Below, piece after piece: positions 3,425 through 47,629 of a DNA stretch of 64,000 bases. The notes beneath the pieces are model-generated. The model saw only the letters and a list, made by a program, of their open reading frames with translations, did not search any database and was not told the origin of the DNA. Each line of letters starts with the position of its first letter. The first letter of the stretch is position 1. The translations under genes and the position numbers were made by a program. The DNA lies in NCBI GenBank assembly GCA_032622095.1, contig CP136061.1:14833287-14897286 (forward strand), read 5' to 3'. This stretch comes from Siphonodentalium dalli. Lineage: Eukaryota; Mollusca; Scaphopoda; Gadilida; Siphonodentaliidae.

Positions 3425-6400
3425 GGGTCCGTGAAGTTGGATCGAAGTTCGAAGTTCGAAATTCGGTGGAGATTCGACCCCCACTTTTGTTTGCCTCAAA
3501 TGCATTGTTGTGTTCCAATTCGTGCTCCCCTGCTCGAATTTTGGGTCAAAAGTGATTTTTTTTCACTTTTTCTGAGATACTGCTGGACTTGGAAAATTTA
3601 GCCACGGCGCTGGACTTATTTATGGCTGGATTGAGCTGAAATTTGGTATGTTTGATACTTTCCATAAGAGAATCAAGCAAACTAACGCTCAGCTTCGAGA
3701 AATTACTCGATCTATAGGTTTGAATTTCAATCTGGGCGAATTTCGATCTGGATTGAAGTTCGAAATTCAGATTGAAATTCGACCCCCACTTTTGTTTGCC
3801 TTAAGTGCATTGTTGTGTTCCAATTCGTGTTCCCCTGCTCGAATTTTGAGTCCAAAGTGATTTTTTTCACTTTTTCTGAGATACTGCTGGACTTGGAAAA
3901 TTTAGCCACGGCGCTGGACTTATTTATGGCTGGATTGAGCTGAAATTTGGTATGTTTGATTCTTTCCATAAGAGAATCAAGCAAACTAACGCTCAGCTTC
4001 GAGAAATTACTCGATCTATAGGTTTGAATTTCAATCTGAATTTTAATCTGGGCGAATTTCATTCTGGATTGAAGTTCGAAATTCAGATTGAAATTCAAAC
4101 CTATAGATCGAGTAATTTCTCGAAGCTGAGCGTTAGTTTGCTTGATTCTCTTATGGAAAGTATCAAACATGCCAAATTTCAGCTCAATCCAGCCATAAAC
4201 AATGCCACTTCCCTTCGGCACCTTAATATTGAAGGCCAAATTTTCTACGTCCAGCGTCGTGGCTAAATTTTCCAAGTCCAGCAGTATCTCAGAAAAAGTG
4301 AAAAAAATCACAAAAAAAGTGGGGGTCGAATTTCAATCTGAATTTCTAACTTCAATCCAGATCGAAATTCGCCCAGATTGAAATTCAGATTGAAATTCAA
4401 ACCTATAGATCGAGTAATTTCTCGAAGCTGAGCGTTAGTTTGCTTGATTCTCTTATGGAAAGTATCAAACATACCAAATTTCAGCTCAATCCAGCCATAA
4501 ACAATGCCACTTCCCTTCGGCACCTTAATATTGAAGGCGAAATTTTCTAAGTCCAGCGCCGTGGCTAAATTTTCCAAGTCCAGCAGGGGGGGGGGGGGGG
4601 GTCGGAAAAAAATTCCAGGCGCGTATGATGGGGTGGGTGGGTGGGTGTCTCTCGGGTCCAAAAAGCTGTTTTTTCCATGTGCCAAATTTTTTTTCCATTC
4701 CTGCTATTGAGTCTTATTTTGATGTGTTTTGAACAGAACCAGGTCATATATAGTTAATAGTAATGCTATACTATATATAGAGGTTATCAGTAGTTGGATC
4801 AGTTGCACAATGGCCAACAATAACCCAAATTCAACTTGATAGAACTAGAAACTGCGCTATTGGAAAATTAAATTTAATCAGGATTCCATCTACTGATACA
4901 ACAAAATAAGAATAACTATGCAGAACTCAGCTGAAAATAAGCAATAAAATGAAAGCACATTTGACCATATGAGACATGGAAATAAAGATATAATAAATAA
5001 TGGAATAAAATAGACTTTTGACAACATAAAACATAAAATCTTAACAAATAAATTGAAGGCCAGCCGGGCCAGCTTGAACAATTTCAAATTGTTTTCCAAG
5101 TTAATGTGGATCAGCTTGTAATGTTGATCACAGTAACAAAGATTTTATCGTCACTGATATCGTGAGCAAAAAAGAAGTGAGATTGGGCTATCCATCCATA
5201 GTATTCCCAATTATTACGAAGCCTATTACTTCAAGCAGTGGCTACCAGCCTGCCATTACACGCTATAACATGTTTCCTCAGTTCTGGTTTCTGAGATGCA
5301 CCAAGAAGAGTCACGCGGGTATATCATGGTTGTGTTTGGTATTAGCATTATTCTTCAAACTGGGATAAACTGGGATGAACAGTTGTATTTCCACATGTTT
5401 TGATAAACAATTTGGTTCCAGCAATACAGTAATGAACTAATTAAACGACTCCATAACCACAGCAGAATAATGGGTAATTTTTTCAGGGGAGAGCTTTCCG
5501 ATGAATGACAACAAGCCATATTTCCAACTAAATCCTGAAAAATTACCCATTATTTTGCTGTGGTTATGGAGTCAATTAATTAGGGCATTACTGTATATCA
5601 CATAGCAAATATCAAAATATCAAATAATCTGAAATTTGTTGTACCGGTACCATGTATTCTGTAGAATACTCAAATGTGATTATGTGACTAGATCATGTGA
5701 CTATATATTATGAAAATGAATGTTAATACAAACTTTGGCACTTTGCCTATATATCCCTAGAAATGTGATTATGTTGACACATTTCTTGATTAATGACACT
5801 TATATGATAAATTCAAATAGTATCGTTATCTCATTATGCACTGTTCTATTCAAATATCGCGCAATAAATTATGATAATGCAGGATAATCAGCTATTTGGT
5901 TGCTCAGTTGATAATTTTCTCAAATTTAAGGGGGGTGGGTATCCAAAACTGACCGGAAAAAAATTCCTGAAACGGAAAAAAGAGGGTGGGTGTCCAAAAT
6001 TGCCTGGAAAAAAAGGCCGGAAACGGAAGAAATTGGGTTGGTGGGTCCCCCGATGCCGGAAAAAATTAAAATGATACGTGCCTGGAAAAAAATTCCGACC
6101 CCCCCCCCCCTGAGTCCAGCAGTATCTCAGAAAAAGTTAAAAAAAATCTCTTTTGACCCAAAATTCGAGCAGGGGAGCACGAATTGGAACACAACAATGC
6201 ATTTAAGGCAAACAAAAGTGGGGGTCGAATTTCAATCTGAATTTCGAAGTTCAATCCAGATCGAAATTCGCCCAGATTGAAATTCAAACCTATAGATCGA
6301 GTAATTTCTCGAAGCTGAGCGTTAGTTTGCTTGATTCTCTTATGGAAAGTATCAAACATACCAAATTTCAGCTCAATCCAGCCATAAACAATGCCACTTC

Positions 6401-6674
6401 CATTCGGCGCATTGATATTGAAGGCGAAATTTTCTAAGTCCAGCGCCGTGGCTAAATTTTCCAAGTCCAGAAGTATCTCAGAAAAAGTGAAACAAATAAC
6501 TTTTGACCCAAAATTCGAGCAGGGGAACACGAATTGGAGCACAACAATGCATTTGAGGCAAACAAAAGTGGGGGTCGAATCTCCACCGAATTTCGAACTT
6601 CGAACTTCAATCTAACTTCACGCGAATCTCCACCGAATTTCGAACTTCGAACTTCGATCCAACTTCACGGACCC
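3425..6674. mobile_element. Foldback element with 9-bp TSD (Mutator-like, non-autonomous)
   Basis: The termini are exact inverted repeats: GGGTCCGTGAAGTTGGATCG at the left and its complement at the right, ending at 6,674. Both ends are flanked by the same 9 bp, GCACTTTTG (3,416-3,424 and 6,675-6,683), a perfect target-site duplication. Long TIRs with a 9-bp duplication are typical of Mutator-like elements (family knowledge). The arms carry a unit of about 310 bp (motifs CGACCCCCACTTTTGTTTGC, TTTTTCTGAGATACT, CGCTCAGCTTCGAGAAATTA). It runs forward at 3,425-4,078 and inverted at 4,079-4,590 and 6,100-6,674. The core (about 4,690-6,060) is AT-rich with G-rich patches near 4,580-4,650 and 5,930-6,050. 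No transposase was found, so movement would need an enzyme supplied in trans. Confidence 0.85.
5424..5596. mobile_element. 173-bp MITE nested in the foldback element
   Basis: ATACAGTAATGAACTAATTA at the left and its imperfect complement ending GGGCATTACTGTAT at the right enclose arms that share CGACTCCATAACCACAGC and AATAATGGGTAATTTTT. The arms are about 65 bp and the loop about 45 bp. The ends fit TA + CAGTAATG, so a Tc1/mariner-type TA target is plausible (inference). It lies inside the core of the 3,425-6,674 element, so it is a nested and probably later insertion. Confidence 0.7.
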
Positions 6675-12520: not shown

Positions 12521-13130
12521 TCAGACGCGCACAGTCGTCAGGTATGTTCTTTATCATATCAGACGCACACAGTCGTCAGGTATGTTCTTTATCATATCAG
12601 ACGCACACAGTCGTCAGGTATGTTCTTTATAATATCAGACGCACACAGTCGTCATGTATGTTCTTTATCATATCAGACGCACACAGTCGTCAGGTATATG
12701 TTCTTTATCATATCAGACGCATACAGTCGTCAGGTATGTTCTTTATAATATCAGACGCACACAGTCGTCAGGTAGGTTCTTTATAATATCAGACGCACAC
12801 AGTCGTCAGGTAGGTTCTTTATAATATCAGACGCACACAGTCGTCAGGTAGGTTCTTTATAATATCAGACGCGCACAGTCGTCAGGTAGGTTCTTTATCA
12901 TATCAGACGCACACAGTCGTCAGGTAGGTTCTTTATAATATCAGACGCGCACAGTCGTCAGGTAGGTTCTTTATCATATCAGACGCGCACAGTCGTCAGG
13001 TAGGTTCTTTATCATATCAGACGCGCACAGTCGTCAGGTAGGTTCTTTATCATATCAGACGCGCACAGTCGTCAGGTAGGTTCTTTATCATATCAGACGC
13101 GCACAGTCGTCGGGTAGGTGCTTTATAATA
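12521..13130 (+). repeat. 38-bp minisatellite, ~16 copies
   Basis: The unit begins CAGACGCACACAGTCGTCAG and continues GTATGTTCTTTATCATAT. It repeats with a 38-bp period from about 12,521 to 13,130, with one 40-bp unit near 12,690. Variant positions (GCACAC/GCGCAC, GTATG/GTAGG, ATCATAT/ATAATAT) are clustered: GCGCAC units predominate in the distal half, as expected from local unit exchange. There are no spacers, so it is not a CRISPR array. Confidence 0.93.
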
Positions 13131-16100: not shown

Positions 16101-16486
16101 TATAGTGGCTCCATCCTACAGGGCGTTGTTCGAATATTTGTACGTGCATGGTGTGCATATAGAGACGTGGGTCATTGCACCTATGGGGTATTTTGGACCA
16201 CAACTTACATGTACACAATGTAACAGTCTTAGCCTGTTGTCCATGCGTCCCATACAAGGTATATATGTGGCTGAGTCCATTGCCTATTTGCATAATTATA
16301 TATGTGGGTCTATGACCTGTATAATGATGCTGGCTCCGTGGCTTGGAGCTAGCTAAGCTCATGCCCTATATATGTGCATCTGTACCCAACGCATCCCAAT
16401 GGGATACTCGCATATATACGAACATGCCTTGGCACACGATCCTTAATGCTGCTCCAGCGAAACTCCCGCCATGAACTGCGCGACAT
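13131..16486. other. Intergenic, no gene seen
   Basis: 3.3 kb without a supported feature. A GC-rich hairpin lies at about 14,446-14,493 (GGCGGGCCGATA facing TATCGGCCCGC). Overlapping open frames on both strands at 15,961-16,362 have no recognisable domain and look like chance. No TIR pair was recognised. Confidence 0.5.
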
Positions 16487-19400
16487 GATTAACAGTGCAT
16501 TGGTGTGAACGTCACACGCCCGCCAAGGACCCCACGGCAGGATTAACAGTGCATTGGTGTGAACATCACACGCCCGCCATGAACCCCACGGCAGGATTAA
16601 CAGTGCGTTGGTGTGGACACCACACGCCCGCCAAGGACCCCACGGCAGGATTAACAGTGCATTGGTGTGAACATCACACGCCCGCCATGAACCCCACGGC
16701 AGGATTAACAGTGCGTTGGTGTGGACATCACACGCCCGCCATGATCCATACGACATGATTAACAGTGCATTGGTGTGAACATCACACGCCCGCCAAGGTC
16801 CCCACGGCAGGATTAACAGTGCATTGGTGTGAACATCACACGCCCGCCATGATCCCTACGACATGATTAACAGTGCATTGGTGTGAACATCACACGCCCG
16901 CCAAGGACCCCACGGCAGGATTAACAGTGCGTTGGTGTGAACACCACACGCCCGCCAAGAACCCCCACGGCAGGATTAACAGTGCATTGGTGTGAACACC
17001 ACACGCCCGCCATGGACCCCACGACAGGATTAACAGTGCATTGGTGTGAACACCACACGCCCGCCATGAACCCCACGACAGGATTAACAGTGCATTGGTG
17101 TGAACACCACACGCCCGCCAAGAACCCCCACGGCAGGATTAACAGTGCATTGGTGTGAACACCACACGCCCGCCATGAACCCCACGACAGGATTAACAGT
17201 GCATTGGTGTGAACACCACACGCCCGCCATGATCCCTACGACATGATTAACAGTGCATTGGTGTGAACATCACACGCCCGCCAAGTACCCCACGGCAGGA
17301 TTAACAGTGCGTTGGTGTGAACATCACACGCCCGCCATGATCCCGACGACATGATTAACAGTGCATTGGTGTGAACATCACATGCCCGCCATGATCCCTA
17401 CGACATGATTAACAGTGCATTGGTGTGAACATCACACGCCCGCCATGAACCCCACGACAGGATTAACAGTGCATTGGTGTGAACATCACACGCCCGCCAT
17501 GATCCCTACGACATGATTAACAGTGCATTGGTGTGAACATCACACGCCCGCCAAGGACCCCACGGCAGGATTAACAGTGCGTTGCTGTGAACATCACACG
17601 CCCGCCATGAACCCCACGGCAGGATTAACAGTGCATTTGTGTGAACACCACACGCCCGCCATGAACCCCACGACAGGATTAACAGTGCATTGGTGTGAAC
17701 ACCACACGCCCGCCAACACCCCATGGCAGGATTAACAGTGCATTGGTGTGAACACCACACGGCCGCCATGAACCCTACGACAGGATTAACAGTGCATTGG
17801 TGTGAACACCACACGGCCGCCAAGAACCCCCACGGCAGGATTAACAGTGCATTGGTGTGAACACCACACGCCCGCCATGAACCCCACGACAGGATTAACA
17901 GTGCATTGGTGTGAACACCACACGCCCGCCATGAACCCCACGACAGGATTAACAGTGCATTGGTGTGAACACCACACGCCCGCCATGAACCCCACGACAG
18001 GATTAACAGTGCATTGGTGTGAACACCACACGCCCGCCATGAAACCCCACGACAGGATTAACAGTGCATTGGTGTGAACACCACACGCCCGCCATGATCC
18101 CCACGGCAGGATTAACAGTGCATTGGTGTGAACACCACACGCCCGCCAAGAACCCCACGACAGGATTAACAGTGCATTGGTGTGAACACCACACGCCTGC
18201 CATGAACCCCACTACAGGATTAACAGTGCATTGGTGTGAACACCACACGCCCGCCATGGACCCCACGACAGGATTAACAGTGCATTGGTGTGAACACCAC
18301 ACGCCCGCCATGAACCCCACGACAGGATTAACAGTGCATTGGTGTGAACTCCACACGCCCGCCAAGAACCCCACGACAGGATTAACGGTGCATTGATGTG
18401 AACACCACACGCCCGCCAAGGACCCCACGGCAGGATTAACAGTGCGTTGGTGTGAACATCACACGCCCGCCATGAACCCCACGACTGGATTAACAGTGCA
18501 TTGGTGTGAACACCACACGCCCGCCAACACCCCACGGCAGGATTAACAGTGCATTGGTGTGAACGTCCCACGCCCGCCAAGGACCCCACGGCAGGATTAA
18601 CAGTGCGTTGGTGTGAACGTCCCACGCCCGCCATGAACCCCACGGCAGGATTAACAGTGCATTGGTGTGAACACCACACGCCCGCCATGAACCCCACGGC
18701 AGGATTAACAGTGCGTTGGTGTGAACACCACACGCCCGCCATGAACCCCACGGCAGTATTAACAGTGCATTGGTGTGAACATCACACGCCCGCCAAGAAC
18801 CCCACGACAGGATTAACAGTGCGTTGATGTGAACACCACACGCCCGCCATGAACCCCACGACAGGATTAACAGTGCATTGTTGTGAACATCACACGCCCG
18901 CCATGAACCCCACGACAGGATTAACAGTGCATCGGTGTGAACATCACACGCCCGCCAAGAACCCCCACGGCAGGATTAACAGTGCATTGGTGTGAACACC
19001 ACACGCCCGCCAAGAACCCCCACGGCAGGATTAACAGTGCATTGGTGTGAACACCACACGCCCGCTAAGAACCCCCACGGCAGGATTAACATTGCATTGG
19101 TGTGAACACCATACGCCCGCCATGAACCCCACGACAGGATTAACAGTGCATTGGTGTGAACACCACACGCCCGCCAAGAACCCCCACGGCAGGATTAACA
19201 GTGCATTGGTGTGAACACCACACGCCCGCCATGATCCCCACGGCAGGATTAACAGTGCATTGGTGTGAACACCATACGCCCGCCATGAACCCCACGACAG
19301 GATTAACAGTGCATTGGTGTGAACACCATACGCCCGCCATGAACCCCACGACAGGATTAACAGTGCATTGGTGTGAACACCACACGCCCGCCAAGAACCC

Positions 19401-19935
19401 CCACGGCAGGATTAACAGTGCATTGGTGTGAACACCACACGCCCGCCAAGAACCCCCACGGCAGGATTAACAGTGCATTGGTGTGAACACCATACGCCCG
19501 CCATGAACCCCACGACAGGATTAACAGTGCATTGGTGTGAACACCACACGCCCGCCAAGAACCCCCACGGCAGGATTAACAGTGCATTGGTGTGAACACC
19601 ACACGCCCGCCATGATCCCCACGGCAGGATTAACAGTGCATTGGTGTGAACACCATACGCCCGCCATGAACCCCACGACAGGATTAACAGTGCATTGGTG
19701 TGAACACCATACGCCCGCCATGAACCCCACGACAGGATTAACAGTGCATTGGTGTGAACACCACACGCCCGCCAAGAACCCCCACGGCAGGATTAACAGT
19801 GCATTGGTATGAACATCACACGCCCGCCATGATCCCCACGACAGGATTAACGGTGCATTGGTATGAACATCACACGCCCGCCATGATCCCCACGACAGGA
19901 TTAACAGTGCGTTGGTGTGAACATCCCACGCGAGT
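16487..19935. repeat. 54-bp minisatellite, about 64 copies
   Basis: The unit starts GGATTAACAGTGCATTGGTG, continues TGAACACCACACGCCCGCC and ends with a variable ATGAACCCCACGACA, AAGAACCCCCACGGCA or ATGATCCCTACGACAT segment. Most units are 54 bp; units with AACCCCCACGG are 55 bp. Two blocks of 381 bp (seven units, three of them 55 bp) starting near 19,140 and 19,521 are the same, indicating recent block duplication. Because 54 is a multiple of three, long frames stay open on both strands with an 18-residue period. They break at the 55-bp units and have no gene context, so they are not genes. Confidence 0.96.
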
Positions 19936-20959: not shown

Positions 20960-21636
20960 ACATTTCAATCAGTGTCATGGTGTCAGCCATTTCAATCAGG
21001 GTCATGGTGGTCATACATTTCAATCAGGGTCATGGTGGTCAGACATTTCAATCAGGGTCATGGTGGTCAGACATTTCAATCATGGTCATGGTGGTCAGAC
21101 ATTTCAATCAGCGTCATGGTGGTCAGACATTTCAATCAGGATCATGGTGGTCAGACATTTCAATCAGGGTCATGGTGGTCAGACATTTCAATCAGGGTCA
21201 TAGTGGTCAGACATTTCAATCAGGGTCATGGTGGTCAGACATTTCAATCATGGTCATGGTGTCATACATTTCAATCATGGTCATGGTGTCAGACATTTCA
21301 ATCAGGGTCATGGTGGTCAGACATTTCAATCAGGGTCATGTTGGTCAGACATTTCAATCAGGGTCATGGTGGTCAGACATTTCAATCAGGGTCATGGTGG
21401 TAAGACATTTCAATCAGGGTCATGGTGGTCAGACATTTCAATCAGGGTCATGGTGGTCAGACATTTCAATCAGGGTCATGGTGGTCAGACATTTCAATCA
21501 GGGTCATGGTGTCAGACATTTTAATCAGGGTCATGGTGGTCAGACATTTCAATCATGGTCATGGTGGTCAGACATTTCAATCAGGGTCATGGTGTCAGAC
21601 ATTTCAATCAGGGTCATGGTGGTCAGACATTTCGTC
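20960..21636 (+). repeat. 28-bp minisatellite, ~24 copies
   Basis: The unit is CAGGGTCATGGTGGTCAGAC followed by ATTTCAAT. A few units lack two bases (ATGGTGTCAGAC). Since 28 is not a multiple of three, a frame passes through all three phases and happens to stay open, giving a 254-codon frame rich in repeated VMVVRHFNQGH-type peptides. This is a property of the repeat, not evidence for a protein. Confidence 0.93.
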
Positions 21637-30536: not shown

Positions 30537-31135
30537 CATGCACGTAATCCGTAGCCAGTAAATCATTGCTATACATGCACGTAATCCGTAGCCAGTAAAT
30601 CATTGCTATACATGCACGTAATCCGTAGCCAGTAAATCATTGTTATACATGCACGTAATCCGTAGCAAGTAAATCATTGTTATACATGCACGTAATCCGT
30701 AGCCAGTAAATCATTGTTATACATGCACGTAATCCGTAGCCAGTAAATCATTGCTATACATGCACGTAATCCGTAGCCAGTAAATCATTGCTATACATGC
30801 ACGTAATCCGTAGCCAGTAAATCATTGCTATACATGCACGTAATCCGTAGCCAGTAAATCATTGTTATATATGCACGTAATCCGGAGCCAGTAAATCATT
30901 GCTATACATGCACGTAATCCGTAGCCAGTAAATCATTGCTATACATGCACGTAATCCGTAGCCAGTAAATCATTGCTATACATGCACGTAATCCGTAGCC
31001 AGTAAATCATTGTTATACATGCACGTAATCCGTAGCCAGTAAATCATTACTATACATGCACGTAATCCGTAGCCAGTAAATCATTGCTATACATGCACGT
31101 AATCCGTAGCCAGTAAACCATTGTTATACATGCAC
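30537..31135 (+). repeat. 37-bp minisatellite, ~16 copies
   Basis: The unit is ATGCACGTAATCCGTAGCCA followed by GTAAATCATTGCTATAC, with very few differences between copies (GCTATAC/GTTATAC, one CGGAGCC, one CGTAGCA). High uniformity suggests recent expansion. 30,359-30,536 between this and the MITE holds nothing recognised. There are no spacers, so it is not a CRISPR array. Confidence 0.94.
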
Positions 31136-31374
31136 GCTGCACCCATGCAAATTGGTGATTCTCAGCTCTCCTTGATAAACAAACCTTCGTCGGAATATCT
31201 CGATTGTGAAGAACGTTTACTGACATGCACGTCTCCTTTGATTGAGATAAACAAATAGTTTGATTGGAATTTGCGTGGAAACATTTTACCCCAATATGCC
31301 GCCTTTGACGGCACATGAATTGGCCGGAAACTGCATTAACCGACTGGTGAAAGTTCGTGACTCACATAATGGTT

Positions 31375-33850: not shown

Positions 33851-33903
33851 TGATATAACCAATTATTGATGAGCACTCTGCTTGATAGCTTCACTTTCAA
33901 TAA

Positions 33904-34061
33904 TTAGTGGAGCAGATATGTGAATAATCGTTACCGTTAATGAATAAATTGTGAAATTTGGCCCAGACGTTCCTGGTTGGGTCCTTTGAAAATATTTCTG
34001 GTAGGCAACTGGATCGGACAATTTTTAGGGTGTTTTGGGGGTTTCCATAGCAACGAACCCC
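33904..34061 (+). repeat. Left terminal inverted repeat of the coding transposon
   Basis: In order: TTAGTGGAGCAGATA, AATCGTTAC, TGAATAAATT, GAAATTTGGC, GGTAGGCAA, TTTAGGGTG and CCATAGCAACGAACCCC. Each word has a counterpart in the same order in the complement of 40,669-40,836. Overall identity is moderate, with small indels. Confidence 0.8.
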
Positions 34062-34788
34062 ATTTCAGCCTACTTTTCTCAGAAAAATGTATACAAGACC
34101 GGAGATTGTGGGTAGATCGGAGTTATTTTTTACTCAAAATACCACGCTAGTGACAGAAGTCTTACCCGACAACTTTTAGGCAACTAGAAGCACGGGTTGG
34201 TTGCTATGGGGACCAACTATACCAAGTCACGTGACCAATATACGTTGATGAATGGAACATGTGTATTCGAAGAGATGGACTTCAAATCAATATATATTTA
34301 GAACTAATTCGTGGGTATTATTCCCAGAATCTACTCATATTAAGTATTGTTAGACATTAAACTGTTGTATTAACGAAAACCATTTCAAATTGGGATTACT
34401 TATTATACCCAAAATACTCTCGAAAAGTGGAAATTTCTCGAAATAAGTTTGCCACCCATATGTCGTTATCAACACACTTGCGCTAGATTATGCTGGTTAA
34501 TATGACCATCTTACATGTACATCAATTAGATATATATGTAACGTGTCTAATAGTGTGTAGATTTACATTGGTCATAAGGGATGGCTGCCAAAATGGTCAC
34601 AACATATGACCGAGTCGCCCATTTTGTTAAAGTTCAAAACAGGCTATTTCAATATGGAAAATTCAGGTTTTATATCAAAATAAACACATACTATAATGTT
34701 ATCAGAGAGCTCTTCTAATCAAATTGAATTAACCGATTGATGAAAATAGTCTTCATTGTACAGTTTCTGTTGATGAGCTCATGCATAC
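34062..34788. other. Non-coding left arm and 3' flank of the transposon gene
   Basis: Lies downstream of the gene's TAG stop. No canonical AATAAA polyadenylation signal was seen on the minus strand here, so the 3' end is undefined. It holds one X-box-like word, GTTGCTATGGGGAC at 34,200-34,213. Confidence 0.5.
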
Positions 34789-37700
34789 CTAATGGGCTCC
34801 CTTCCGTTCACAACTTTCACCGCACAAGCAAATGTCAGTACACTGTAGACCATGTTTTCCACACGAGCAATGCATGCATTTAGCACCCACTTTCAAGCAT
34901 TTACAGTGAGAGAGTTCTTGACACGACTTAGCTATTTGGTCAAGATTTGTCCATGTTGGGTTCCACATATTTCTCTCGGATGATTCCCAACCCCAATCAG
35001 AAGGATCAGGGGGTTGGTATGATATGTCTAACGAATTTTCCCATATCCGTGCTTGGTAGACACTCCGCCTGATATGCTGGAGGAGAGCAGCTCGTGACGG
35101 GGGCAGTCGGTCAAAAGCTTTCCCTTTTTTTGTGAACATGTCTCGTCGCGTTGCGTCAATGTTGTTCCCTTCGCTGGTACGATCAAACAGAAACATAACA
35201 TATTTTTCAATACTACAAATGTCTTCATAACTGACTCTTTCAAGCGTGCGGAGAGATATGAACTGTTCTGTTACGTCGGTGAACCCATTCCAACATTTAA
35301 TGCAACTCTTCTTTCCGTGGTTGGCAAATCCCGAGCAGGTGTCGCATCCCGTGAAGGCATGAAAAAAGGGAAGAGCTGATGATCGGTCTGGTCCAAGACC
35401 GTCGCTAATTTCACGCACGGATATCACGCGCTCAAACTTTCCTGTGCCGAACATGATATACAGATTGTCGAGAGTGAGTTGTCTCACCAGAGAAATGGCT
35501 ATCACGACCACGTCAGAGTCTACAGTATAAATTGTTATATTCCTTAATCCAGCGTCTGTCGCATGTTTTACATGTAGGAGCAACCTTGTGTCTGCTTCCT
35601 CTTGATTGCAAGGAGAAATAGTATCAACATGGAACGTGTCTGAGCTCGACACCACTGTCTCGTTCAATGTCGCAACAAGCACCCCACATACGGGTGTCAC
35701 ATTTACAATATTTTTTGCCAGAAAGTTGAAAAGTTCTGATTTATTTGTTGAGCAACTGAGGAAGTTTTTCCACTTATTGCCTCTTGGGACTTTTGCGCTG
35801 TCAGTTACACGAATTCTCGTACCTTCACCAAGTCTTGCTCGCGTTGCATTTTTCAGGCTATTTGGAACATAGACATCAAACACAACATCCACACGCACAC
35901 ACTTCTCACCGAGATATGAACACAATTTCGGGATAAAAACGTCGTGAGCGTAGTCTGAAAATGTGGCTGTAGTTGCATACGGAACGGTCATATGAACCAT
36001 GGCAGCTCCATCTATGATGACGCAGTCACTCTCTGGAACTACATCACGTTCACAAAAGCTCTCCAGAAATGGTAAAATGTCAGACTTTTTGTTCACGAGC
36101 ATATCCCCGTTATCTGATATAGAAGGTGGGCATGCTTGATTTTCATGCATAAAGAAATCCAACATGTCAACACCGCGAATTATGGCAATGGTGAATAGCT
36201 TTGAGAAAAGTTCTAAGTCATTTCTCAACATTTTGATAGTGTTTTTTGCTTTATTTTTGTTGCGTGATCTATGCTGGAACAAAAGAAAGTTATTCCGAGT
36301 CATGGGTTCCCAGAATGCACACTGATTGAGGTTTTTGGTATATGTGCTAACACTTTCTAGTCCTGTGCTCTCTATTCGAAAAACATTGGCATTCATAACA
36401 GTGTCAGCCAAAACGTTTGTACTTATATTCATTAGTTCTGAGACAAGGAACGGATTTGACAAGTCATTCAATTTCGAGGTCAATGCAGCAACTTCCGCAC
36501 TGTAAGATATTATAACTGCTTTGGTGCTTTCATGGTGGGATAAGTAGCCCTGGATTGGCGCGTTGGTATTGCTCTTAAACGAGTCAAGAAGCTTGGCCAC
36601 TTCTGGTCCCGCAATCAACCATCTCAGCAGAATTCCCGGATCCTCGCTCAAGCCCACTGATCCACTACCGGCCTTAATCAACGCGTTGTTCTGTTCATGG
36701 GCCTGGTCCAGACCCATTGCAGAGAACTTTCTCAGAGATTTCCGTACAACGAAGTTCCCCATGACAAATTCGGAATACACGGATGGGTGTTTGCTTTCCA
36801 AATCGAGCATGTCCTTGATGTGAACTAGTAGCATTCGCGCATAATTAGGCATGTCCATGGCATGAACGAAATGAACAATGGAGCACATACTCTGGACGTA
36901 TAGATCGAAATCTCCAACGCGCACAGACCGAATGAATGCAAGTACGTGGATAATCAAGTTCAGAATCATGTGCCAGAATTTAAACATGGGATTGTCACTT
37001 GATTTCTGTTTGATCCAATCCTTGATGTCACAAATACTGTTGCTAGTATTATCGGTGTACTCGTTGTAAGCAGCAACCATTTCGTGATACATGACAACGG
37101 CAGTTATTTCGTGATAGTGACGAGCTTTCTTAATGGACGCAACTTTTAGTAAAGAATCAGCGGTACCAGACCCGACAAGTCCTGCTTCCGACAATAGCTC
37201 ACACCAGCCGCTTGAATTTAAGAGTTTACCCGTTACTGCCAATAACTCTTTCTCGATGTGTAGGGGACCTAGCATTACAACGAATTTACTCTCCCCGAAC
37301 TCATTGGGCAATAACCACTGCACTGTCTTTGCTGGTGCATATAGTGGACAATCTGCAGCAATAATGGGCGTCTGTGTCGGATTTAGATGGTGAGTTGCAA
37401 CTTTAACAATATCCATGGAATGCTTTGTCATTGCAAATGTGGCAGATTTTTGTGAGAACAGAGGTAATAGAGCGGTAAGAGTTAAATTCAATGTCTCGGG
37501 ATCCCCATATTGTTTCTCTTGCGAAAGAGCCCACGGAACGAGGGTCTCACCCGTGTAATCACCTTTACCGGTCACGTTCTCTTGAAGCCAAGTTAATTCT
37601 GGTTGAATTAGTTTTTCTGATTCAATATTTCGTTTTATGAATTGAAACAGCTTTTCACCGTCATTCTCCTCATTTCTATCGCAGAACGATGAGTCCACCG

Positions 37701-38076
37701 AAACACCAGGAAATGGCACGGGATCACGTTTTGTGGATTTACACGGTTTAATGAAAGCATAGTGGTCAGGAAGAGAGCTAACCTTTCTCGAACTTTTCTT
37801 ACGTGGTTCTCTGGAGGGGATACTCAACGAACGCTCGATCCCCGGATTTGATTGTGTTGGATATTGAAATAAAGATATGCCGGTTCCATGAAAGGACTCC
37901 TTAGCCGTTGCTGATGATGGATCTAAATCTATGTTATCGAATGCACCAACTGTGAATAGGTTTCTCCTCATATTAGTTGGACATACGACACCCTCATCGC
38001 GGAATTGCTCTACTGCTGAATCTGCCATTGTTGTCGTGATCTCCATAACACGGTCATACGATATACTGAGGCCCAT
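34789..38076 (-). CDS. Transposon protein, C-terminal part: FEN1/XPG-like nuclease + CXC cluster
   Basis: A 1,095-codon frame. The true coding frame is open further upstream, to 38,205 and slightly beyond (in-frame stop near 38,229), and joins the N-terminal ORF through a frameshift. Residues 1-75 are a family-typical block (GLSISYDRV, ATAKESFHGTGISL). Residues 236-295 and 452-464 carry conserved IAADCPLYA, KFVVMLGPLHIE and GLDQAHEQNNA; D242 and E461 could belong to an RNase H-type transposase core (inference). Residues 685-925 fit a FEN1/XPG fold: D689 (IIDGAA), D734 (VVFDVY), E827 and D829 (QEEADTRL), D853 and D855 (TVDSDVVV), D912 (TGCDT). Residues 1058-1089 hold nine cysteines spaced like pre-SET/CXC Zn3Cys9 clusters and probably bind DNA. 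Products of this family are usually annotated as uncharacterised or CXC-domain proteins. The likely role is transposition of its own element in the nucleus. Confidence 0.85.
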   Translation of the reverse strand: MGLSISYDRVMEITTTMADSAVEQFRDEGVVCPTNMRRNLFTVGAFDNIDLDPSSATAKESFHGTGISLFQYPTQSNPGIERSLSIPSREPRKKSSRKVSSLPDHYAFIKPCKSTKRDPVPFPGVSVDSSFCDRNEENDGEKLFQFIKRNIESEKLIQPELTWLQENVTGKGDYTGETLVPWALSQEKQYGDPETLNLTLTALLPLFSQKSATFAMTKHSMDIVKVATHHLNPTQTPIIAADCPLYAPAKTVQWLLPNEFGESKFVVMLGPLHIEKELLAVTGKLLNSSGWCELLSEAGLVGSGTADSLLKVASIKKARHYHEITAVVMYHEMVAAYNEYTDNTSNSICDIKDWIKQKSSDNPMFKFWHMILNLIIHVLAFIRSVRVGDFDLYVQSMCSIVHFVHAMDMPNYARMLLVHIKDMLDLESKHPSVYSEFVMGNFVVRKSLRKFSAMGLDQAHEQNNALIKAGSGSVGLSEDPGILLRWLIAGPEVAKLLDSFKSNTNAPIQGYLSHHESTKAVIISYSAEVAALTSKLNDLSNPFLVSELMNISTNVLADTVMNANVFRIESTGLESVSTYTKNLNQCAFWEPMTRNNFLLFQHRSRNKNKAKNTIKMLRNDLELFSKLFTIAIIRGVDMLDFFMHENQACPPSISDNGDMLVNKKSDILPFLESFCERDVVPESDCVIIDGAAMVHMTVPYATTATFSDYAHDVFIPKLCSYLGEKCVRVDVVFDVYVPNSLKNATRARLGEGTRIRVTDSAKVPRGNKWKNFLSCSTNKSELFNFLAKNIVNVTPVCGVLVATLNETVVSSSDTFHVDTISPCNQEEADTRLLLHVKHATDAGLRNITIYTVDSDVVVIAISLVRQLTLDNLYIMFGTGKFERVISVREISDGLGPDRSSALPFFHAFTGCDTCSGFANHGKKSCIKCWNGFTDVTEQFISLRTLERVSYEDICSIEKYVMFLFDRTSEGNNIDATRRDMFTKKGKAFDRLPPSRAALLQHIRRSVYQARIWENSLDISYQPPDPSDWGWESSERNMWNPTWTNLDQIAKSCQELSHCKCLKVGAKCMHCSCGKHGLQCTDICLCGESCERKGAH

Positions 38077-38089
38077 GTCATGAAATATA

Positions 38090-39355
38090 TCAATGAGTTC
38101 TCGACTTCGCGTCTTTGCGTGAAGTAAGAGTCCTATGTATATAGGTAACGGTGGCTCTCGTTTTCTCGAATGTCGCGCTGCTGCACTTTTTGCATCTTTC
38201 TTGCGTTTTTTTGTAAGAATTGAAAAGAATCAATTGGGCAACAGATAAAACATATTTTGATATCCTCGTTTCGCAGTTGACTAATGTAAGTAGAGAATCG
38301 GGAAGTGATTCCTCTTGCGTTTTACTATCCAGTGACTCAATATTATCTGATATTCTTGGTTTAAAGTTGAAAATTTCCTGGCGAATTTTTCGTACCGTCC
38401 TCGCAAGGCGATAGCACTCGGTGTCTGAGTCAACCATATCTAACGCTGTAGCAATTTCGTCATCGAACGCAAACACAATTTCTCTTCCGGACTTGTAGGA
38501 CCGCATTCCTGGAACCTGTGTGAGAATGCGTGCTTTTAGTCTGCTCGGATTTATATTCGTCCGCTTACCATAAAATTCAGAACGTTCTTCGTACATCTTA
38601 CGGAGATAAGAAAGTTTGAATGTTGTACCGCCAGTGCCGGAATGAGACTCCTCCATCCACATCATGATTTCAGTCAATATGATTGGTTCATAATTGCTGA
38701 TGGGGAGATGTTCCAAAAGTCGACGATTCGTTTCACTTCTTGCTCTGTTATAGAGAGAAAGCATGCACCCCGTGTGGTATTTTGCCTCTTGACTAATTAA
38801 ATCGCCTGCACTCAAAACTGCTAAAAGTTTCTCATCTTGCAACAGAGTCGCACAATCTTCAACCATTCGGCACTTCGAAAATGATTCCACTGTACAAACA
38901 TCTGAGTCAGTCAATCGTGCAAATTTATCACAAATGAAGCACTGATCACCAGGAGAGCTAAGACTTCCTGTCGAAGAATCATGGCGACCACCAAGTGAAG
39001 AGCGGAGAAACTTCTTAGCCGAATCCGGTGTTTCCAATGCTTTGCGTTTTGATGCTATCTTTGACTTTAATCTATCCGAACTTACATTCCGTTTACAGTT
39101 TTTATGGATCTTCGCTTTATTTCGATTCAGAACGTCAGCTATATTACCATCGTCGCCGAGAGTCCCAAGCTCAGTTGTATATATACCATTGTCCAGAAAC
39201 ATCTTAATTCTGTCGCCAACATCTTGAAAATCAGTCGGATACAACACAGGATTAGACGGCATATCAGCATCACCCTGACAGAAGTAACATTTGTTCCAGT
39301 CAATTTCCCTTGTATGTACACTTTGACTCTTTACCAGTGGTGGAGCATCACTCAT
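38090..39355 (-). CDS. Transposon protein, N-terminal part: two zinc-finger-like pairs, frameshifted
   Basis: A 421-codon frame. The start ATG (39,355) lies 22 bases after a predicted splice acceptor and is followed by family-like sequence. C23/C26 with H84/C87 and C139/C142 with H194/C197 form two CxxC...HxxC pairs (YFCQ...IHKNC; FICD...YHTGC), probably zinc-binding. A charged region and a conserved LRKMYEERSEFYGKR segment follow. Up to residue 383 the sequence is in frame. After seven A's (38,212-38,206) the last 38 residues are out of frame. The alternative frame from 38,205 continues with KKDAKSAAARHSRKREPPLP and IYIGLLLHAKTRSR, the normal family continuation into the C-terminal ORF. Joined length is 1,521 codons. 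Causes: a decaying copy, an assembly error in the homopolymer, or slippage during expression. Confidence 0.85.
   Translation of the reverse strand: MSDAPPLVKSQSVHTREIDWNKCYFCQGDADMPSNPVLYPTDFQDVGDRIKMFLDNGIYTTELGTLGDDGNIADVLNRNKAKIHKNCKRNVSSDRLKSKIASKRKALETPDSAKKFLRSSLGGRHDSSTGSLSSPGDQCFICDKFARLTDSDVCTVESFSKCRMVEDCATLLQDEKLLAVLSAGDLISQEAKYHTGCMLSLYNRARSETNRRLLEHLPISNYEPIILTEIMMWMEESHSGTGGTTFKLSYLRKMYEERSEFYGKRTNINPSRLKARILTQVPGMRSYKSGREIVFAFDDEIATALDMVDSDTECYRLARTVRKIRQEIFNFKPRISDNIESLDSKTQEESLPDSLLTLVNCETRISKYVLSVAQLILFNSYKKTQERCKKCSSATFEKTRATVTYIHRTLTSRKDAKSRTH
38206..38212 (-). other. A7 homopolymer at the frame break
   Basis: On the minus strand, TAC followed by seven A's and CGC. With six A's the zinc-finger ORF reads straight into the nuclease ORF. 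The two frames overlap between about 38,229 and 38,090, and this run is the only homopolymer there that also restores the family-like peptide. Confidence 0.75.
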
Positions 39356-39377
39356 TGTGGATTTTCAGCTTCCAATC

Positions 39378-39802
39378 CTGTAAATAGAAGAAGTCAGGAG
39401 AATTAGAAACGTAATGACACAAAAAAGAACGAGAGAGAACAAGATATGTCATACAATTGTGGATGCATACTGAAACGCAATCATTGCAACACTAAAGAAG
39501 GGATCCGCAATTGTTAACATATCGGCTTTCCGTAGTTTTTTATCCATGTGCGTGACGTTTAACATGGAGTGAAAATCACCATAGTTCATATATTTGTGTT
39601 ATAATATTCAATTTGATAAAGATATGCACCACGTATCAAGCATGTGAAAAGGGGTTGGTTGGCTGAACGGGAAAACAAATAATCACCGCCGTCATGTATA
39701 GTTAGTCAACATAAATATTTCCACTTTCATCACAAAATATTTCACTCAAATCTTGATTTTATTCTGGTGAACCGTTGTGCTATAAAACAATAGTAGACTT
39801 AC
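39378..39802 (-). other. Predicted 425-bp 5'-UTR intron
   Basis: Donor on the minus strand CATGTG/GTAAGTCTAC (G of GT at 39,802). Acceptor TTCTTCTATTTACAG/GATTGG with a pyrimidine tract (AG ends at 39,378). Splicing leaves a 22-base leader before the start ATG, and a five-codon upstream ORF (ATG at 39,807 ending TGA in exon 2). Both sites match metazoan consensus well. No transcript evidence. Confidence 0.55.
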
Positions 39803-39900
39803 CACATGAAATATCTGGTTCTGTTACTTTCTCTTTTAGTCTTCAGTTTTAGAAAGTGAATCCGATCGAAGATGTTTTTTTGAACGCACGCGGTTCTGAA

Positions 39901-39908
39901 ACTTCCGG
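39901..39908 (-). promoter_or_regulatory. ETS-like site, possible promoter element
   Basis: CCGGAAGT on the minus strand, about 100 bp upstream of the predicted donor and so near where a transcription start would lie. ETS sites are common in TATA-less metazoan promoters. No TATA box was found close by. Suggestive only. Confidence 0.25.
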
Positions 39909-40668
39909 CTTAAAAAATGTATGGAAGGCCAGATGCACAACAACAAACTTAGGGAACGTGAGGCGGAATAATTATAAATATTTATGATTTTAGACATAAG
40001 TTATCTTGTGATTGAATAATTGTTCAAATTTACTCGCTACCATTTGTTGTCTACCGGGAATCCGGGAAGAGACGATTTCCAGTGTAACCATTGTATTGGC
40101 ACAGTTGGGGAACGCTTGTTTCCATGACAACTAGGACCTAAATGTGGGTATAGCGAAACCAGCTTTGAGGATATATATAACATTTTAAGAGCTGCGAAAA
40201 TGTAATCTTATAGCGGGAATTCCAATTCTTAACATGTTCACCAAAGCTACTACCGGAACATCATTTTTTCAACAACCAATCTCGAAACAGCTAATTCGCG
40301 CCAACTGGTGTTCATATAAATCTTCGTTTATTGTGGTCAATCACTAACTAAATCCGGAAAATCTGTTATATTGTCTTTATGGAATACCGATGATGATATA
40401 ATCTTAAATTGAAACATATTACATAAAATTTGTGCGTACTGGTATAAACTAAATACAAATTTTATTTTTTTTAACTCAATTTTTTAAGAAAATCCACTCG
40501 TTTCCATGACAACAAACAAAACTGTGCTGACCTGGACCCAATTTTTACAGTCTGTTGTATAGAGTGGCCCTTCCTCTATTGGACAAAGAAACACCTACAT
40601 CGATATTGCTGATAATGTTCACATAGCTGTCCGTCAAAATTAACTGCCCTATACCGTAAATTATAACA

Positions 40669-40836
40669 GGGGTTGGTTGCTATGGCAACAGCTTAATCAC
40701 CCTAAATAAGCTCGGAATTTTTTGCCTACCGAATTATTTTAACCGCGACATACCAAAAATTAAGTGTGCAAAATTTCGTAATTTATTCACAAAGTGTAAC
40801 GATTCGCTATTTTCTGGCACTTATCCGCTCCACTAA
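40669..40836 (-). repeat. Right terminal inverted repeat of the coding transposon
   Basis: Complement of the left TIR in word order, ending GCTCCACTAA next to ATAA. It is about 10 bp longer than the left copy because of small insertions. The arm between 39,803 and 40,668 is non-coding. Confidence 0.8.
40676..40689. promoter_or_regulatory. X-box (RFX-type) palindrome in the transposon right TIR
   Basis: GTTGCTATGGCAAC fits the RFX consensus GTNRCC(N)RGYAAC in palindromic form. Similar words occur only in the element's arms: GTTTCCATAGCAAC (34,041-34,054, mirrored TIR position), GTTGCTATGGGGAC (34,200-34,213), GTTTCCATGACAAC (40,118-40,131 and 40,500-40,513). Repeated subterminal palindromes could be transposase-binding sites or recruit a host RFX factor (inference). 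Confidence 0.4.
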
Positions 40837-41257
40837 ATAAGCGAGGTAACTCTATATCGACACAGATTGGTTTTCTGCCGTGCATATTGACTATTTGTGT
40901 GATACAATGATGAATGCCATTGCTCGGTCCCAACGGTTATACAGACAAATGCAAAATACATGGACTGGCTAAAGAATCACATAAAGAACCACTATTCGGT
41001 TGGTGGTGGCTATTTTCGCTCTCAGTTCATGTGTAGAATTATATAGCACGCTTCATTAATTAAGCCTACATATATTCATATACAGCTAACTTGTCATAGG
41101 GGGCATATATGACCACCAATTAGAGTGTGTACCGGTCAGATACACACGATAAAATAACTTCTGAAAATGTATGATAAAATCGCTGGAAATATATTTTCCC
41201 TAAAATTACGAGTATGCCGGTTAACTTTTAAACTTAATAAATGCTACACTCTTAAAA

Positions 41258-45043: not shown

Positions 45044-47629
45044 TATTAGAGACGTTTCGTTAATATCACTATTACGATTACGGATAGGTTATATTGTCCT
45101 AGTAAGGTGGACACATCACAGTTACGATTACGGTAAGGATATATTGTCCTAGTAAAGTGGACACATCACTATTACGATCACGGATAGGATATATTGTCCT
45201 AGTAAAGTGGACACATCACAATTACGATTACGGATAGGATATATTGTCCTAGTAAGGTGGACACATCACTATTACGATTACGGATAGGTTATATTGTCCT
45301 AGTAAAGTGGACACATCACTATTACGATTACGGATAGGTTATATTGTCCTAGTAAAGTGGACACATCACTATTACGATTACGGATAGGATATATTGTCCT
45401 AGTAAAGTGGACACATCACAATTACGATTACGGATAGGATATATTGTCCTAGTAAAGTGGACACATCACTATTACGATCGCGGATAGGATATATTGTCCT
45501 AGTAAGGTGGACACATCACTATTACGATCGCGGATAGGATATATTGTCCTAGTAAAGTGGACACATCACTATTACGATTACGGATAGGATATATTATCCT
45601 ATAGTAAGGTGGACACATCACTATTACGATTACGGATAGGATATATTGACCTAGTAAGGTGGACACATGACTATTACGATTACGGATAGGTTATATTGTC
45701 CTAGTAAGGTGGACACATCACTATTACGATTACGGATAGGTTATATTGTCCTAGTAAGGTGGACACATCACTATTACGATTACGGATAGGATATATTGTC
45801 CTAATAAGGTGGACACATGACTATTACGATTACGGATAGGATATATTGTCCTAGTATAATGTGGACACATCACTATGACGATTTCGGTTAGGATATATTG
45901 TCCTAGTAAGGTGGACACATGACTATTACGATTACGGATAGGATATATTGACCTAGTATAAAGTGGACACATCACTATTACGATTACGGATAGGATATAT
46001 TGTCCTAGTAAGGTGGACACATGACTATTACGATTACGGATAGGTTATATTGTCCTAGTAGGGTGGACACATCACTATTACGATTACGGATAGGATATAT
46101 TGTCCTAGTAAGGTGGACACATCACTATTACGATTACGGATAGGATATATTGTCCTAGTAAGGTGGACACATCACTATTACGATTACGGATAGGATATAT
46201 TGTCCTAATAAGGTGGACACATCACTATTACGATTACGGATAGGATATATTGTCCTAGTAAAGTGGACACATCACTATTACGATTACGGATAGGATATAT
46301 TGTCCTAATAAGGTGGACACATCACTATTACGATTACGGATAGGATATATTGTCCTAATAAGGTGGACACATGACTATTACGATTACGGATAGGATATAT
46401 TGTCCTAGTAAGGTGGACACATCACTATTACGATTACGGATAGGATATATTGTCCTAATAAGGTGGACACATGACTATTACGATTACGGATAGGATATAT
46501 TGTCCTAGTAAGGTGGACACATCACTATTACGATTACGGATAGGATATATTGTCCTAATAAGGTGGACACATGACTATTACGATTACGGATAGGATATAT
46601 TGTCCTAATAAGGTGGACACATGACTATTACGATTACGGATAGGATATATTGTCCTAATAAGGTGGACACATCACTATTACGATTACGGATAGGTTATAT
46701 TGTCCTAGTAAGGTGGACACATCACTATTACGATTACGGATAGGATATATTGTCCTAGTAAGGTGGACACATGACTATTACGATTACGGTTAGGATATAT
46801 TGTCCTAGTAAGGTGGACACATGACTATTACGATTACGGATAGGATATATTGTCCTAATAAGGTGGACACATGACTATTACGATTACGGATAGGATATAT
46901 TGTCCTAATAAGGTGGACACATGACTATTACGATTACGGATAGGATATATTGTCCTAGTAAGGTGGACACATGACTATTACGATTACGGATAGGATATAT
47001 TGACCTAATAAGGTGGACACATCACTATTACGATTACGGATAGGATATATTGTCCTAGTAAGGTGGACACATGACTATTACGATTACGGATAGGTTATAT
47101 TGTCCTAGTAAGGTGGACACATCACTATTACGATTACGGATAGGATATATTGTCCTAGTAAGGTGGACACATGACTATTACGATTACGGATAGGATATAT
47201 TGTCCTAATAAGGTGGACACATGACTATTACGATTACGGATAGGATATATTGTCCTAATAAGGTGGACACATCACTATTACGATTACGGATAGGACAGAA
47301 AGTCCTAGTATAATGTGGACACATCACAATTTACCTGCGAGGGCTAATTGGTGAGAAGGCATTATGCCCCACTATATTCAGTTACACATATATTTGATGG
47401 ATAAAGTAATGTGTGTCTCTTTCAGATCTCATGTTTGTATCCGTATGTAATACACCACATGGATAATGTTATATAGAGCGTCCCCAAGCAGGACCGGTGG
47501 TACACTATTGACATATAATTAAATATAGTTCGTCTCACATGCCTTTTGCTCTAATTTTGGCCGTATCCTGGCAGGATATTTCCATATCCGTAATCCTAGT
47601 CGTGATTTTGCGAAAGGTTTCTATTGTTA
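45044..47629. mobile_element. Foldback element whose interior is a 50-bp satellite
   Basis: The left end TATTAGAGACGTTTCGTTAA + TATCACTATTACGATTACGG and the right end CATATCCGTAATCCTAG...GATTTTGCGAAAGG + TTTCTATTGTTA are diverged inverted repeats. They match the ends of the 144-bp MITE at 23,796-23,939. The satellite fills 45,067-47,333. A spacer of about 240 bp (47,340-47,580) separates it from the right end. No coding. Confidence 0.7.
45067..47333 (+). repeat. 50-bp satellite, ~45 copies
   Basis: The unit is CACTATTACGATTACGGATA + GGATATATTGTCCTAGTAAG + GTGGACACAT. The first 20 bases equal the inner TIR motif of the 23.8-kb MITE. Common variants: GGATAT/GGTTAT, CTAGTAAGG/CTAATAAGG, CATCAC/CATGAC. 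CATGAC is absent before about 45,665 and common after, showing local homogenisation. Short frames inside are repeat artefacts. Confidence 0.95.

Follow-up and report, generated by a model that had tools for sequence, protein, structure and literature searches.

Does the long nuclease-like gene in the middle of this stretch belong to the scaphopod that carries it or to a mobile element, and, in the latter case, where does the element end and of which kind is it? The stretch, hereafter the window, comprises 64,000 nucleotides of the Siphonodentalium dalli assembly GCA_032622095.1 (contig CP136061.1, positions 14,833,287 to 14,897,286, forward strand), and an earlier note, made from its letters, had proposed a complete transposon at 33904-40836 that encodes a FEN1/XPG-like nuclease. 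We hold with good confidence that the gene is carried by a class II transposon family, most likely AcademX, whose protein of about 1500 amino acids combines zinc pairs, a probable DDE domain, a FEN1/XPG-like nuclease and a CXC-like cysteine cluster. Copies elsewhere in the genome establish the mobility signature of the element, its boundaries and its 3-bp target-site duplication (TSD), which lie in the window as follows.

33905..40835, minus strand: complete transposon copy of 6931 bp, delimited by 12 paired copies with common TAGT...ACTA ends
33902..33904, unstranded: left TSD, AAT (3 bp), from the comparison of paired copies
40836..40838, unstranded: right TSD, AAT (3 bp), from the comparison of paired copies
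33905..34061, unstranded: left terminal inverted repeat (TIR), diverged, from inverted-repeat arms and alignment
40669..40835, unstranded: right TIR, diverged, from inverted-repeat arms and alignment

The window element runs from TAGTGGAGC on the left to GCTCCACTA on the right, and the copies with both ends available start with TAGT and finish with ACTA. The mirrored ends and diverged TIRs of about 160 bp described in the earlier note were borne out by the repeat arms I6 (22 nt, 86%), I2 (40 nt, 80%) and I1 (62 nt, 73%) together with the alignment, and its boundaries were nearly right, each lying one base too far out, since 'TTAG' includes a flanking T on its outer side. The TAGT/ACTA ends and the 3-bp TSDs of the paired copies place the element at 33905-40835, flanked by AAT. 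The 4-bp ATAA duplication that had been proposed did not survive, since the paired copies and the empty sites give AAT as the actual TSD; ATAA was rejected as a coincidental match of A/T-rich flanks.

When the genome (nine contigs, 2.23 Gb) was searched with the element ends, multiple copies sharing both termini were recovered, as had been anticipated. The best 40 of 118 candidate matches were scored for the left end and the best 40 of 122 for the right, self included in both, and a left-end pattern built from the copies had 59 genome matches versus none for the reversed control (the window's own left end is one base off this pattern and hence outside the 59). Twelve pairs were assembled, 11 listed as such plus L047/L048 (C1:181.2 Mb), whose ends lie 13.5 kb apart and were treated as one element. 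The TSD is perfect in all of them except L042, and reads AAT (window), TTT, TAT, TTA, ATA, ATA, TAG, TAT, ATA, TGG and TTC in the other 11; copies thus do have differing duplications at their flanks, as expected by the earlier note, but of 3 bp and not of 4 bp. One second copy, L029, is 98.6% identical to the window element across its full length.

Empty sites were sought by fusing the flanks of five insertions with a single copy of the 3 bp and matching the products to the genome, and sites without the element were present for four of them (L029, L032, L038 and L039). With the fused flanks of L038, 38 of the 40 matches listed cross the junction, the remaining two being the filled site's own flanks; this insertion sits inside a repeat, its fused flanks resembling, as judged by eye, a reverse-transcriptase frame. 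A combined query for four sites yielded 41 matches listed, the best scored of 2379 candidates, among which 16 for L029, 19 for L039 and 5 for L032 cross the junction, the one left over being a short stray. Nine empty sites read across the four insertions have an exact junction with a single copy of the 3 bp, the 3-base length difference in an L038 empty site being located away from it. That the gene family is transposon-borne is supported by the common termini, the 3-bp TSDs, the empty sites and the separate TIRs of a second, diverged lineage (below). The alternative of a host gene multiplied in the form of a large repeat, its inverted ends being due to chance, can find a foothold in segmental duplicates whose flanks are identical (L033, L034 and L037; C3:15.30 and C3:17.65 Mb), yet independent loci have different flanks, 3-bp TSDs and empty sites, and we regard this explanation as refuted, with next to no probability left to it.

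Several copies are deleted or rearranged. In seven of the 15 other close loci mapped, one segment is missing from the 5' end of the gene:

38958..39873, unstranded: 916-bp segment (gene 5' end) absent from those seven loci

The loci in question (L032, L033, L034, L035, L037, L038 and L039) break at element positions 5053/5970, equal to within a base, so that positions 5054-5969 are missing, and L040 has a similar gap at 5015/5952. Since the seven represent at least five insertions by their flanks, they presumably constitute an internally deleted subfamily that was mobilised in trans. Three of them, L033, L034 and L037 (C2:123.4-124.0 Mb), share a left flank and an inverted rearrangement in which element position 6583 is joined to 4850 reversed, and are apparently one rearranged insertion multiplied by segmental duplication. 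Further removed are L042-L045, of 5-8 kb, whose termini are TAGTTGGGC or TAGTTTGGC and whose ends are 81-85% alike; their interiors are unrelated and contain no part of the transposase protein at E 1e-5, the longest open reading frames (ORFs) in L042 and L043 being His/Ile-rich repeats. A 3-bp TSD flanks L043, L044 and L045, and none flanks L042.

Coding sequence occupies much of the interior of the window element, on the minus strand, and had been described as one gene; as an unbroken frame this did not hold, the gene being split in two.

38090..39355, minus strand: ORF1, 421 amino acids, N-terminal part of the transposase gene, in a single frame with ORF2 in the relatives L049-L052
34789..38076, minus strand: ORF2, 1095 amino acids, with the probable DDE domain, the FEN1-like nuclease and the CXC-like cluster

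Between the two ORFs lies a run of seven A, where each of the 16 other alignments that extend across it has six; these represent 13 loci, L033, L034 and L037 being segmental duplicates, and two L048 rows do not cover the run. The frame change that splits the gene is private to this copy. A programmed frameshift at the run was considered, as both flanking frames are open, and was rejected because of the six A in the 16 other alignments and the uninterrupted frame of the four relatives read. The window gene has also undergone a 27-bp deletion (four of six aligned copies have all 27 columns), the gene of L029 is likewise split, and, of the 53 matches listed with ORF2 as the query, no close copy keeps a frame of about 1500 codons open throughout. 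Across 19 segments of close copies, the ratio of nonsynonymous to synonymous substitution rates (dN/dS) exceeds 1 in three and is 0.37-0.94 in the other 16, the value of 1.69 for the window against L018 being based on very few changes; this mixed picture may hint at past constraint on the gene.

Intact frames are found in more distant copies. In seven relatives (35-40% identity) the frame extends from stop to stop over 1507-1534 codons with none in between, and four of these frames were read directly. The diverged family to which they point, at the same 35-40%, has its own, perfect inverted termini (TAGTATAGCGG...) and is typified by L049, with a single open frame of 1533 codons; its right end was defined as the point where genomic copies cease to match. 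The terminus TAGTATAGCGGCTAAGACC has 46 pattern matches, where the reversed control has two, and the matches include convergent pairs spaced by 8-12 kb; 3-bp TSDs were found at all six pairs examined, three of which (C3:15.30, C3:20.74 and C9:160.9 Mb) contain a protein match, the other three having been identified by their ends. Two of the pairs have identical flanks, which leaves five distinct sites. The 20-nt end of the L049 family is identical to the window element at 14 of 20 positions on the right and 12 of 20 on the left; because the best other 20-mer starting with TAG in the window reaches 13 of 20 (n=1467, one self match excluded), homology of the termini beyond TAGT is merely suggestive. 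The copies at C3:15.30 and C3:17.65 Mb, with identical flanks 2.35 Mb apart, appear to be a segmental duplication that included the element, and at L065 a G-rich minisatellite, with a unit of roughly 90-100 bp, lies in the left part of the relative element.

Conservation in the protein was judged on five sequences, and the parts that stand out are these.

39289-39095 and 38941-38765, minus strand: C-x2-C ... H-x2-C pairs of ORF1
36694..37938, minus strand: probable DDE catalytic region, from residue conservation in the five sequences
35314..36012, minus strand: FEN1/XPG-like nuclease core, with D689, D734, E827, D829, D853, D855 and D912, then G921
34810..34905, minus strand: CXC-like cysteine cluster, C-terminal

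The two N-terminal pairs, which agree with the zinc fingers of the earlier note, recur in each of the five sequences, with C-x3-C in the second pair of one of them. Residues D47, D242, H273 and E461 of ORF2 are invariant, and we propose D47, D242 and E461 as a putative DDE triad. At the other end of the protein, the C-terminal cysteines are spaced like a CXC half-domain, and their pattern is conserved; this part of the proposed CXC cluster held, and the Tesmin/TSO1 CXC domain of Pfam did not, its model TCR (PF03638) being the sole family listed for the window tail at E 3.9 and 8.3 bits versus a cut-off of 23.5, with no TCR match in the tails of the three relatives scanned.

Human FEN1 has the conserved carboxylates D34, D86, E158, E160, D179, D181 and D233, and seven acidic residues invariant in the five sequences (D689, D734, E827, D829, D853, D855 and D912) follow in a FEN1-like order. 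An alignment of eight nuclease sequences of the family gave with hhalign a score of 31.8 (P 0.0023) against FEN1, EXO1 and GEN1, and of 37.5 (P 0.0004, probability 35%) against eight FEN/XPG-type sequences; controls for the latter reached at most 26.3 in 100 column shuffles, 29.9 in 60 block shuffles and 17.8 when reversed. In default realignment against both reference sets, D853, D855, D912 and G921 pair with D179, D181, D233 and G242 of FEN1. In permissive alignment, three references also pair D734, E827 and D829 with D86, E158 and E160 and misplace D689 (six of the seven carboxylates), while with eight references D689 and D734 pair with D34 and D86 and the E-A-D segment is off by two residues (five of seven), so that one or both of the two profile alignments bring each of the seven onto its FEN1 counterpart. 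By this residue-by-residue pairing the C-terminal half of the putative active site is firm, the rest being placed by the permissive alignments and the order of motifs. The FEN1/XPG-like nuclease of the earlier note is therefore upheld by the controlled hhalign comparison and by the seven acidic positions invariant in the family, five or six of which align to catalytic FEN1 positions per run, and profile similarity of this predicted domain to FEN1-type nucleases is demonstrated. Its likeness to FEN1, XPG, EXO1 and GEN1 lies in the order and similar spacing of the acidic residues and, for FEN1, in a glycine nine residues past the last aspartate (D233 to G242), as in the window protein; unlike them, it is embedded in a transposase, and the match is significant in profile comparison only.

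Could this domain itself be the cleavage enzyme of transposition, the N-terminal half being just a module for DNA binding and assembly? FEN1-type enzymes cut flaps and are not known to carry out strand transfer. That the seven acidic residues are invariant and follow the order of FEN1, next to a proposed DDE domain with no detected homology, would suit such a role, but precise 3-bp TSDs and invariant, spaced D, D and E are typical of DDE integrases, and we find the idea highly improbable.

Five palindromic sites that resemble GTTKCCATRGCAAC, the X-box sequence of RFX proteins, lie at matched distances from both ends of the element.

34041..34054, unstranded: X-box-like palindrome GTTTCCATAGCAAC, beginning 137 nt inside the left end
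34200..34213, unstranded: X-box-like site GTTGCTATGGGGAC, subterminal
40118..40131, unstranded: X-box-like site GTTTCCATGACAAC, subterminal
40500..40513, unstranded: X-box-like site GTTTCCATGACAAC, subterminal
40676..40689, unstranded: X-box-like palindrome GTTGCTATGGCAAC, 146 nt from the right end

The motif was picked by eye after the sequence had been seen, and the statistics came later: the pattern GTTNCC-N0-3-RGNAAC, with at most one mismatch, has 10 strand-wise matches (the five sites) in the terminal 1.8 kb of the window element, where 200 dinucleotide shuffles gave a mean of 0.69 and a maximum of 6, none in the element interior and 19 in the remaining 57 kb of the window. The sites recur in the four non-autonomous relatives sampled (L042-L045); in these, L029 and L032 they begin 137-138 and 287-298 nt inside the left end and lie 145-146 and 320-323 nt from the right end, with another near 700 in all but L042 and two extra inside L045. 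Most simply, the palindromes would be putative binding sites of the transposase. RFX proteins drive ciliary and sperm genes, and because the sites stand about 140 and 290-320 nt in from either terminus and persist even where the interiors are unrelated, the ends might instead be built around this host factor, which could help pair them or tie the timing of transposition to the male germ line; the data allow this equally with palindromic binding sites of the transposase itself, and we consider an RFX role decidedly doubtful. No X-box-like sites were found at the right end read of the L049 family, and the first 700-odd bases of its left end contain, at up to two mismatches, one poor match only, which disfavours a role throughout the lineage. 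A literature search by titles and abstract openings linked no X-boxes to transposon ends.

To which superfamily, then, does the element belong? The AcademX lineage of the Academ superfamily was reportedly set out by Kojima in 2020 (Repbase); its nuclease is XPG-type and its termini are 5'-YR, and both the window family and the L049 family have 5'-TA termini. TSDs of Academ elements seem linked in length to the enzyme encoded, AcademX combining 3 or 4 bp with a nuclease and AcademH 9 or 10 bp with a helicase, according to the part of PMC10045372 drawn on here. We found a 3-bp TSD in 11 of the 12 pairs, in all six L049-family pairs and in nine empty sites, and a nuclease by hhalign with shuffles, at the weak absolute probability already given and with a global mode that is not significant. 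The 3-bp TSD with a nuclease, in two lineages, agrees with that description (PMC10045372) and is consistent with a probable new AcademX family. The likeness to AcademX lies in these two traits, whereas the CXC-like cluster and X-box-like sites of the window element go unmentioned in the same part of the source (PMC10045372). AcademH shares with the element the superfamily name and differs by its helicase and its TSD of 9-10 bp (PMC10045372); it was rejected, given the 3-bp TSD and no helicase family among the matches.

A transposon of the same kind might belong outside Academ, to some DDE lineage not yet described in which an XPG-type nuclease was gained independently. The AcademX placement was made without an Academ reference sequence, and KolobokE, KolobokD and KolobokP, which resemble the window element as DDE transposons with an added nuclease, carry different nucleases, so that such acquisition is recurrent, as far as the consulted part of that source describes them (PMC9587614). 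Their nuclease folds are different, and KolobokP has long terminal direct repeats (PMC9587614, same part). As the 3-bp TSD with a nuclease is the AcademX combination (PMC10045372, in the part cited), we deem an origin outside Academ rather unlikely.

The AcademX interpretation must also be set against several results that count against it. No Academ transposase was among the sequences compared, so the placement is consistent rather than proven. Of the 41 matches that the combined query listed, none represents an empty site of the window's own insertion. The protein has no convincing match in Pfam, NCBIfam or PDB chains, a PDB profile search having returned chance-level matches alone (E 0.3 and worse), and the putative DDE triad rests on five sequences in a region with no fold or family match. 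For the nuclease, the hhalign probability is merely 35%, the global mode is not significant (P 0.56), and no single profile alignment brings all seven FEN1 carboxylates into register. Single-sequence AlphaFold models were uninformative, with a confidence score (pLDDT) of 36.2 for the DDE region and 35.6 for the nuclease region. Searches for relatives of the protein in genome_contigs and viral_contigs, and for FEN1 in genome_contigs, gave nothing useful, and no paper on this protein appeared among titles and abstract openings.

With a class II, most likely AcademX, transposon as the preferred explanation, we infer DDE chemistry, a role for the nuclease, binding sites and the superfamily placement, and the following course can be envisaged. 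The protein would bind the TIRs and subterminal palindromes and bring the ends together, excise the element, and join it to target DNA with a 3-nt stagger that would yield the 3-bp TSD, while the FEN1-like domain may trim flaps, or work on nicked strands, when the element is cut out or the gap repaired. The copy in the window is recent, its gene now being split, and deleted and non-autonomous copies presumably moved in trans.

What is probably new here is the exact anatomy, the open-frame relatives and the X-box-like sites, for a kind of transposon (AcademX) that is known but little studied. Exact ends, an exact 3-bp TSD, empty sites and open-frame relatives are now available for a lineage with no curated protein model among those used; with this anatomy and these relatives it becomes directly testable what a FEN1-like nuclease does in a transposon, and the subterminal X-box-like sites offer a concrete, checkable lead to end recognition. 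Animal proteins with EEADTR, DTDVVV and HALTGCDTTS motifs are annotated as 'uncharacterised', and our results suggest that they are often the products of transposon genes and not of host genes.

Around the element, minisatellite arrays are abundant in the window (16465-19931, 45065-47331, 12521-13130, 20960-21633 and 30537-31136), and include a 54-bp unit in 64 copies and a 50-bp unit in 45 copies.

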